Source of the DNA: an uncultured Pelagibacteraceae bacterium
Lineage (GTDB): Bacteria; Pseudomonadota; Alphaproteobacteria; Pelagibacterales; Pelagibacteraceae
Length of the DNA stretch: 64,000 nt
Direction: 5' to 3'
Assembly (NCBI GenBank): GCA_902599805.1
Contig: CACKGP010000003.1
Coordinates: forward strand, 27,451-91,450
Part shown: in pieces, positions 24,889-30,930 of the stretch
How the letters are laid out: every line of letters starts with the position of its first letter
Numbering within the stretch: the stretch's first letter is position 1
Program-made: the position numbers and the translations under genes
The notes under the pieces: model-generated
Database searches by the model: none
What the model was told of the DNA's origin: nothing
Seen by the model: only the letters and a program-made list of their open reading frames with translations

Positions 24889-25023
24889 AGTTTTTTAATA
24901 GTACTACAGAAATTATTTATTAAAATAGAACGTTTGACAAAGTGATTCGGTCATGATTTAATCATCTTTTGTTCTCTAACCTAGTCTATATGTAGTGTTT
25001 AAAAAAAATTACAGCACAAATTA

Positions 25024-28280: not shown

Positions 28281-28925
28281 TTGCCAAGGAAAAAGAAAAA
28301 AAAATCTAAGTTAAAACCAGTAAAATCTAAAAATGTAAAAAAAACACCTTTACCAAAAAAAGTAAATTTAGCTGATCAAAAAATTGAAATAAAAAAAATT
28401 AAGAAACAGGCTACAGAAAAGAAAGAGTATAATATTAATGACTTTGTTGTGTACCCAAAACATGGTGTAGGTAAAATTATATCTGTCGAAAAAGCTACAA
28501 TAGGTGATATCGGAATAAATTTTTACAAGATTTTAATTGAAAGAGATAAACTTACTTTGACAATACCCATTAATCAACAAAGCCACTTAAGACCAATATC
28601 TTCGATTAATCAAATTAATAAGTGTGTTTCTATTTTGAAAAGTAAACCAAAAATCAAAAGAACCATGTGGAGTAGAAGAGCGCAGGAATATGAGCAGAAA
28701 ATTAATTCAGGTAAAATTTATGAACTCGCAGAAGTAGTAAAAGATCTAAACAAAACATCAAACACTTTAGCTGACCAATCTTACAGTGAAAGACAGCTTT
28801 TTGAACAAGCTTACGATAGATTACAAAGTGAATTTGAGGTCGTGCTTAAAATTTCTGCTGAAGATACGAAAAAGAAAATGGATAAAGCCCTAGGAAGAGT
28901 TCAAAATTTAGAATTAGAGCAATAA
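28281..28925 (+). CDS. carD: CarD-family transcriptional regulator
   Basis: NDFVVYPKHGVGKIISVEKATIGDIGINFYKILIERDKLTLTIP; TTG start. Confidence 0.92.
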   Translation: MPRKKKKKSKLKPVKSKNVKKTPLPKKVNLADQKIEIKKIKKQATEKKEYNINDFVVYPKHGVGKIISVEKATIGDIGINFYKILIERDKLTLTIPINQQSHLRPISSINQINKCVSILKSKPKIKRTMWSRRAQEYEQKINSGKIYELAEVVKDLNKTSNTLADQSYSERQLFEQAYDRLQSEFEVVLKISAEDTKKKMDKALGRVQNLELEQ

Positions 28926-28927
28926 AA

Positions 28928-28964
28928 AAAACGCCCCTTCCGTGAGATTTGGAAAGGGCGTTTT
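28928..28964. terminator. Bidirectional terminator
   Basis: AAAACGCCC(C)TTCC-GTGAGATTT-GGAA(A)GGGCGTTTT. Confidence 0.85.
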
Positions 28965-28977
28965 AATAGAAAACTAT

Positions 28978-29049
28978 TTATCTTCTTCTTCTTCTTCTTT
29001 TTTTAGCCTTCTTTTTTTTCTTTTTAGCTTTTTTACGTCTTTTAGCCAT
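28978..29049 (-). CDS. Polycationic microprotein, 23 aa
   Basis: Manual translation MAKRRKKAKKKKKKAKKRRRRRR*; SD GGGAGATATA-ATG; followed after 13 nt by the terminator at 28928-28964. Confidence 0.65.
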   Translation of the reverse strand: MAKRRKKAKKKKKKAKKRRRRRR

Positions 29050-29068
29050 TATATCTCCCTTTTTTTTT

Positions 29069-29092
29069 AAACGAATCTAAGTGATTCGCTTT
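29069..29092 (-). promoter_or_regulatory. Leader hairpin upstream of the polycationic microprotein
   Basis: Minus strand AAGCGAATC-ACTTA-GATTCGTTT, about 9-bp stem with one G-U pair; minus-strand TTGACA at 29128-29123 further upstream. Confidence 0.5.
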
Positions 29093-29250
29093 ATAATTAA
29101 ACTTTATTTCTTTCTTTATTGATGTCAAACACTAATTAATTCTTAAAATTTTAAAATAAATTTATTTTTTAATTAAATCCTTTAATTTTAAAATTATTTT
29201 AAAAAAGTAAGTAATATCAACACTTTTTTAAATAAAGAATTAATTTATTT

Positions 29251-30930
29251 TTAATAAAGTTTTTCTAATTCCTGTTGATACTTTTCAATTATTTTTTTTC
29301 TTTTTAACTTTAAAGTTGGTGTCATTAAACCATTTTCAATTGTAAATTCTTCAGAAATTAAAATAAATTTTTTTATTTTTTCAATTATAGTTAAATCTTT
29401 ATTTAAATTTTCAACTATACTTCTTATAGTTGCATTATCTTTATCTTTTTGATCTACAACTATTAATGCAACAAGATAATTTTTTTTATCTCCATAAACT
29501 AAACATTGTTTTATTTTTTCATTATTACAAAAATGATTTTCAACTTTACTTGGGGAAATATTATCACCTCCAAGATTTACAATTATATCTTTTTTTCTAT
29601 CAGTGATTTTTAAATAACCATTATTTTTGAATTCACCAATATCACCAGTATGTAACCAACCATTTTTAATTATTTCTTTTGTTTCTTTTTCTTTATTCCA
29701 ATACCCAAGCATTACATTTTCACCCTTAACAAGGATTTCGCCGTCTTCCGCTATTTTGACTTGATTTGTTTTAAAAGGTGGACCTACTGTATCTACTTTT
29801 ATATCTCCTGGTAAATTACAACTGACCACTGGGGACGTCTCGGTAAGCCCATAGCCTTGCAGTGTGGGTAGACCAACTGCATTTAAAAACTCTCCTATAT
29901 TTTTATCTAATGCACCCCCACCAGAGACAAAAGTCTGGAGATTACCACCAAATTGTTTTCGAATTTTTTTTCTTACTAAAACCTCACACAAAAAATTAAT
30001 AAATTTCTCATGAATCTTAAGGTTTATTTTATTCAAAGATTTTATACCTAAATCTATTGTCTTATTTATTAAGAGTTTTTTTATGCCTGTTTGTTTTTTA
30101 AAATTACTATTAATTTTATTGTATAAATTTTGATAAAATCTTGGAACTGCAGTCATTATTGTTGGTTTGGCAATAGACATGTTTGATATTAATTTTTCCA
30201 AACTTTCAGCGTAAAAAACTTTTGCGCCGGTTATTATTTGAATAAATTGAACAGCATGCTCATAGGAATGCGAAAGTGGAAGCCAGGTAAGAAATATTGG
30301 ATCTTTTTTTTTAATCAAAGGCTCAAGTAAATCCATTGCACCCTCGCAGTTTGCCAAAATACCCCCATGGCTTAGTACCACTCCTTTAGGATTACCAGAT
30401 GTTCCCGATGTGTAAATTATACATGCGGGCATATTTCTTTTTAAATTCTTATTTATAATTTTAGTATCAGTTTCTTCTTTTAAAATTTTTTCTATAAGTA
30501 AACTTTTATGATCTATATCCTCGAAAGAAATAATTTCTTTAATTTCTGAATTTAAAAAATTTTTAATTTTTTTAAATTGGTCATTATTTGATACTATTAT
30601 AATGGTTGGTTTACAGTCATTAAGTATATATTTGTAATCATTCGAAGAGTAAGTAGTAAAGATTGGCACCGATATTCCTCCTGCATTCATTATTGCAATG
30701 TCAGACATGAGCCAGTAAGGTCGATTCTCCGAGAGTATTAAACATCTATCACCTTCTTTTATTATTGATTTAATTTTATTTGTTAATTTAAAAATTTTTT
30801 CAGAAACTTGATGCCAAGTATAGGTTGACTTATTTGGTTTTAACCATTTTAAGAAAGGTTTATCTTTATCAATTTTATTTAGTTTTTCAAAAAACAATTC
30901 TACTAAACTATTAAGTTTATTGACTTCCAT
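29251..30930 (-). CDS. AMP-dependent synthetase/long-chain acyl-CoA ligase
   Basis: CIIYTSGTSGNPKGVVLSHGG, LQGYGLTETSPVVSCN, GWLHTGDIG. Confidence 0.92.
   Translation of the reverse strand: MEVNKLNSLVELFFEKLNKIDKDKPFLKWLKPNKSTYTWHQVSEKIFKLTNKIKSIIKEGDRCLILSENRPYWLMSDIAIMNAGGISVPIFTTYSSNDYKYILNDCKPTIIIVSNNDQFKKIKNFLNSEIKEIISFEDIDHKSLLIEKILKEETDTKIINKNLKRNMPACIIYTSGTSGNPKGVVLSHGGILANCEGAMDLLEPLIKKKDPIFLTWLPLSHSYEHAVQFIQIITGAKVFYAESLEKLISNMSIAKPTIMTAVPRFYQNLYNKINSNFKKQTGIKKLLINKTIDLGIKSLNKINLKIHEKFINFLCEVLVRKKIRKQFGGNLQTFVSGGGALDKNIGEFLNAVGLPTLQGYGLTETSPVVSCNLPGDIKVDTVGPPFKTNQVKIAEDGEILVKGENVMLGYWNKEKETKEIIKNGWLHTGDIGEFKNNGYLKITDRKKDIIVNLGGDNISPSKVENHFCNNEKIKQCLVYGDKKNYLVALIVVDQKDKDNATIRSIVENLNKDLTIIEKIKKFILISEEFTIENGLMTPTLKLKRKKIIEKYQQELEKLY

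Follow-up and report, generated by a model that had tools for sequence, protein, structure and literature searches.

Within the window, that is, the whole stretch of 64,000 nucleotides that was analysed, a very short open reading frame (ORF) lies on the minus strand between a carD-like gene and an acyl-CoA ligase gene. The features of this locus, in order of their coordinates, are as follows.

28281..28925, plus strand: carD-like gene, the convergent neighbour of the ORF, with a lysine-rich N-terminal tail
28923..28964, minus strand: intrinsic terminator, formed by a G+C-rich hairpin and a T-run, between the two convergent genes and possibly serving both
28978..29049, minus strand: 23-aa ORF, MAKRRKKAKKKKKKAKKRRRRRR plus stop codon, conserved and single-copy, pN/pS 0.136
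29055..29059, minus strand: Shine-Dalgarno sequence GGGAG, 5 nt upstream of the ATG
29071..29089, minus strand: 5' leader hairpin (G)CGAATC-ACTTA-GATTCG(T), 96% of cells paired, left arm invariant
29082..29088, minus strand: invariant CGAATCA (reverse complement TGATTCG), an extended GANTC site of the GcrA/CcrM type
29101..29106, minus strand: -10-like TAAAGT, separated by a 16-nt spacer from the -35 box; inferred, with a weak consensus
29123..29128, minus strand: -35 box TTGACA, found as TTGACA in 170 of 185 loci and as TTGACT in 7
29251..30930, minus strand: acyl-CoA ligase (AMP-binding), upstream of the ORF on the same strand

An earlier note had described a minus-strand ORF of Met, Ala, Lys and Arg only, preceded by a GGGAG Shine-Dalgarno sequence and a TTGACA box and followed by a terminator hairpin. 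We found each of these elements in place: the frame is open from the ATG at 29049 to the TAA at 28980-28978, the 23-aa peptide contains no residues other than these four, GGGAG occupies 29059-29055, TTGACA (29128-29123) is followed 16 nt on by the -10-like box, and the hairpin begins about 14 nt past the stop codon. A simple terminator scan missed this hairpin, which was instead read directly in the sequence; a hairpin with a T-run follows the ORF in 182 of the 185 homologous loci. The note had also placed the ORF opposite carD. This is correct as to strand, the two genes being convergent, but not as to overlap, as 52 nt separate their stop codons. The acyl-CoA ligase is the neighbour of the ORF in the SAR11 family and is replaced in the sister family. 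Order-2 and order-5 Markov models were used to simulate 120 windows, in which the longest ORF of the form M[AKR]+stop arising by chance was 6 aa, compared with 23 aa in the real sequence. An Rfam search returned only sub-threshold matches at the terminator region (e.g., atoC, with 33.9 bits where 50 are required), which we dismissed as chance.

Searching for the 23-mer as a protein in its own genome gave no match, and we therefore turned to DNA patterns, to synteny with carD and to a covariance model. A strict pattern (a degenerate DNA pattern for MA-K-x-x-KKAKKK) matched once per genome in 55 of 197 genomes of the family, and the reversed control pattern gave 0 matches. Of the 297 genomes of the order, 207 had a match to the covariance model (R1), which was built from the leader and the ORF, and nearly all of these had a single one; among the 150 good-quality genomes, 118 had a match. 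The ORF was convergent with carD in all 21 genomes of the window's genus that have a carD match, and it adjoined carD in 68 of 73 carD loci read in detail; the five exceptions were three contig ends and the draft genome G006, with two overlapping loci, whose ORF carries a one-base frameshift in an A-run. When 25 of the genomes without the ORF were searched for carD, 21 lacked it as well, and in the other four, which do have carD, the sequence ends inside the ORF (L249, L250) or inside carD (L253, L254). Since absence of the ORF coincides with absence of carD or with a contig end, most absences look like assembly gaps. The synteny with carD that the earlier note had proposed to check thus holds throughout the order wherever the assembly covers the site, and the ATG, the Shine-Dalgarno sequence and the frame, whose loss in close relatives would have counted against a gene, are all kept.

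In a scan of named genomes, SAR11 records alone appeared among the at least 80 matches listed, and viral contigs had no match to the strict DNA pattern. A class-wide search with the model yielded only two weak matches outside SAR11, one of which (L276) falls in a 124-aa H1-like ORF, and no K/R-rich ORF of this kind was found beside carD in 28 other alphaproteobacterial loci.

The 131 distinct loci encode 43 different peptides of 19-25 aa, made up of K, R, A, M, T, G and S only, and in every one of these loci GGGAG sits 5-8 nt ahead of the ATG. Synonymous changes dominated the comparison of close relatives that the earlier note had proposed, with a pN/pS of 0.136 over 243 close pairs, and no amino acid replacement in these pairs involves a residue other than K, R, A, T and G. 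Among random point changes, by comparison, 38% would fall outside the K/R/A/T/G/S set and 9% would create stops. Lysine is encoded by AAA and AAG only. The same note had named frameshifting length variation, as in a microsatellite, as a possible refutation: indels preserve the frame and change the length in codon steps, with G006, frameshifted in its A-run, as the single exception. As inferred from these substitutions, selection is maintaining charge rather than residue order. The ORF is a real, selected, single-copy and unannotated protein gene of the SAR11 order.

Longer orthologues occupy the same place elsewhere in the order. Those of the basal genera g5, g7 and g9 measure 31-38 aa (among them a 31-aa form with RRKPAKK, a 32-aa form and forms of 36-38 aa), and those of the basal genus g12 are of the KPAAKK type and measure 34-58 aa (e.g., MAKKRKKAAKKKVAKKPAKRKVAKKKPAAKKRKPAAKKKAPAKKRKPAKKKTAKKRKR). 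Histone-H1-like proteins of 40-91 aa (MEELKVIFAKARKKAKKKAAPKKK..., MEELKVIFAKARKKAKKKAAPKKKRKAAKRKPAKKK...) are found in a sister family within the order; they too are convergent with carD and have a leader of similar type (AACGAATCA). The longer orthologues carry KPAAKK/AAPKKK repeats, internal proline is restricted to them, and net charge rises with length from +15 to +49. In a carD tree (midpoint root, some deep branches weakly supported), the sister family formed a separate clade and the long forms lay at the base, with seven of the eight forms of 30-58 aa in one basal group and the forms of 19-30 aa nested in the remainder.

The family meets two features of H1-like proteins, namely Lys/Ala(/Pro)-rich low complexity with high net charge, and size variation by in-frame repeat number (19 to 91 aa, except in G006). 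A third feature, recognition by a curated family profile, is lacking, as neither Pfam nor NCBIfam gave a match, although low-complexity correction makes this a weak test; a PDB search gave nothing for the 23-mer (a poor query owing to its low complexity) and noise for an 85-mer. The lack of such matches is expected for low-complexity sequence, and the H1 link consequently rests on composition, repeat type and graded orthology. Similarly, as low-complexity sequence cannot prove homology, that between the 23-aa and 85-aa forms rests on position, leader and gradation. The longer H1-like versions lie at the same place and have a similar leader, and the forms of 19-30 aa are therefore most likely H1-like proteins that were trimmed from about 85 to about 20 residues. 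The trimming would have been stepwise, with loss of internal proline and of an N-terminal MEELKVIF segment until a bare polycation was left; net charge falls from about +49 to about +18. The longer relatives and their repeats agree with the guess of a histone H1-like tail in the earlier note; nucleic-acid binding remains an inference.

Known bacterial H1-like proteins include Hc1 and Hc2 of Chlamydia, BpH1 of Bordetella and the C-terminal domain of AlgP of Pseudomonas. Like the SAR11 family, they are K/R/A(P)-rich and disordered, and their size differs by in-frame repeat units, which has been described for Hc2 (PMC2848022); the KPAAKK/AAPKKK repeats are common to them and the longer SAR11 orthologues. 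In contrast, the derived SAR11 forms are only 19-30 aa long, have nearly lost proline and have no N-terminal domain. The SAR11 peptide further differs in being order-wide and single-copy in free-living bacteria, in its fixed place beside carD, and in having no demonstrable sequence homology to these proteins.

Our preferred reading, to which we assign a probability of about 0.72, is that the peptide is a minimal disordered polycation, the streamlined descendant of an H1-like protein, with its own promoter and terminator and with charge-based binding and condensation of DNA or RNA, both expression and binding being inferred. The peptide would be produced in quantity from its own promoter and terminator (there are no transcript or protein data), would bind DNA and/or RNA through charge alone, and would help to condense or neutralise nucleic acid next to normal HU/IHF proteins. 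HU/IHF-type proteins are encoded, and the peptide is thus not their replacement. Without binding data, non-specific neutralisation or condensation of DNA and/or RNA is the most likely role that can be inferred.

Several other explanations have to be weighed against this one. The small basic ribosomal proteins bL37, bS22 and bTHX are tiny and basic and have a MAK-type start. The SAR11 peptide shares these traits and could be a tiny ribosome-associated protein of the same sort, its MAKRRKK start docking on rRNA, which would suit its MAKR/K start, its own strong Shine-Dalgarno sequence and its widespread single-copy occurrence. However, true small ribosomal proteins have a fixed length and conserved residues, whereas here the length varies from 19 to 91 aa, swaps among K, R and A are tolerated and charge alone is kept. 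The missing PDB match also speaks against a ribosomal protein, with the reservation that the low-complexity 23-mer is a poor query. We regard this explanation as unlikely, though not to be set aside. That polyphosphate rather than nucleic acid is bound is suggested by AlgP, an H1-like KPAA protein found at polyphosphate granules (PMC9239181), but there is no direct evidence from SAR11, and AlgP is long and has an N-terminal domain absent from the SAR11 peptide; this appears very unlikely to us. The conserved 5' hairpin, the terminator and the short transcript would also suit a regulatory RNA in which the ORF is secondary, a highly improbable account given the codon-level selection, the retained Shine-Dalgarno sequence and frame, and the longer peptide in relatives.

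An antimicrobial role, with the peptide secreted or released against competitors, is raised by one family member, the 22-mer of L097, which is identical to MR-22 (MAKRRKKAKKKAKKAKKRRRRR-NH2), a peptide picked from UniProt by machine learning, synthesised and tested as an antibiotic; it is reported to kill E. coli at 8-16 µg/mL (PMC10847306). At least one family member is thus in UniProt. The same source reports that its activity is reduced to 256 µg/mL with physiological NaCl, and seawater is saltier; moreover, no signal peptide, exporter or immunity gene was seen beside the ORF, whose carD neighbourhood is conserved, and we find this role barely credible. MR-22 was studied as a drug, and its source organism, conservation and native role are not given in the available part of the paper. 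Finally, the A-rich, CTT/TTTC-like tract could be taken for a functionless low-complexity microsatellite, which is refuted by the conservation across the order, the coding selection and the chance simulation, and to which we attach practically no weight.

The leader of the gene is conserved as well. An A comes after CGAATC in 116 of 117 distinct leaders, and in 160 of the 177 loci measured, 40-41 nt separate it from the start of TTGACA. The left arm of the hairpin was paired in 94% of folds (mean z of -3.1 versus simple shuffles), 96% of the counted pairs were standard, and two pairs had compensatory changes. Some basal genera have a different right arm (TTAAGTGAT in place of GATTCG) and still retain a hairpin, and sister-family leaders have no clear TTGACA. 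We rejected a palindromic operator for many genes: the hairpin palindrome has a single copy in its own genome, which argues against a regulon operator, and its spacer varies.

TGATTCG is the extended methylated motif reported for activation by GcrA (PMC7987155), and GcrA is encoded in the window's own genome and in 15 of 20 relatives. Across the whole window, GANTC occurs only about half as often as expected (93 sites versus 180), as it should if CcrM methylates it. Two features of a GcrA/CcrM target are thus met, an extended GANTC motif conserved in the promoter region and GcrA in the genome; with the depletion, they make GcrA control of the peptide gene a good hypothesis, which is not shown, as it relies on motif match and conservation without binding or methylation data. 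The gene shares with GcrA/CcrM promoters of Alphaproteobacteria a TGATTCG at a fixed distance from the -35 box and the presence of a GcrA gene. Unlike in those promoters, the SAR11 site lies at about +5 to +11 of an inferred start site, inside the transcribed hairpin; Caulobacter GcrA sites may be placed differently relative to the start site. More tentatively, GcrA would act on the CcrM-type GAATC site and so couple the promoter to the cell cycle, and the leader hairpin would shield the 5' end of the mRNA. A bolder proposal makes the peptide an order-wide "mini-histone", coupled to replication and timed by GcrA/CcrM. It would be the smallest H1-like chromatin peptide known, streamlined to charge alone, and would partner a CarD transcription factor that acquired a lysine-rich tail in the same lineage. 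This is possible, yet we consider it doubtful.

We found no description of this gene family, its conservation or its origin in the literature searched, where the MR-22 study was the only paper to contain such a sequence, although large small-ORF catalogues were outside our search and may hold it unremarked; the ORF locus is not described in the available part of a 2009 Pelagibacter RNA screen. SAR11 bacteria rank among the ocean's most abundant cells, with genomes that are among the smallest of free-living cells, and here a gene conserved across their order is too short to pass the length threshold that standard gene callers apply. The Lys/Arg composition of the peptide would also conceal it from trypsin-based proteomics. 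The low complexity of the ORF moreover breaks assemblies: draft SAR11 contigs (L249, L250, L274) end within it, and it is consequently undercounted. Should the H1 origin be correct, the family would offer a natural experiment on how little histone-like protein suffices, and would allow the cell-cycle control of chromatin proteins to be tested directly in streamlined bacteria. MR-22, a peptide already under antibiotic testing, also acquires a biological source through this family.

Three further observations were made along the way. SAR11 CarD proteins have a lysine-rich N-terminal tail (28281-28445 in the window; L031-L274), which measured 55-119 aa with 33-44% K/R in 15 of 16 sampled, the 16th (L273) being cut at a contig edge. 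Of the CarD proteins checked from other Alphaproteobacteria, most have 12-20 residues N-terminally, and a long basic tail was also present in 2 of 28. In leaders of the sister family and of the basal genera g7, g9 and g12 (L225, L227, L230, L251 and L267-L273), an upstream CUCC/CCUC can pair with the Shine-Dalgarno sequence; this pairing is lost in the short forms and suggests possible translational control or autoregulation in the longer ones. A second TGATTCG, at 24943-24949, has a TTGACA on one side and a -10-like box on the other and lies a short way upstream of an 825-aa helicase-like ORF (25024); together these elements form a putative, classical-looking GcrA-type promoter.
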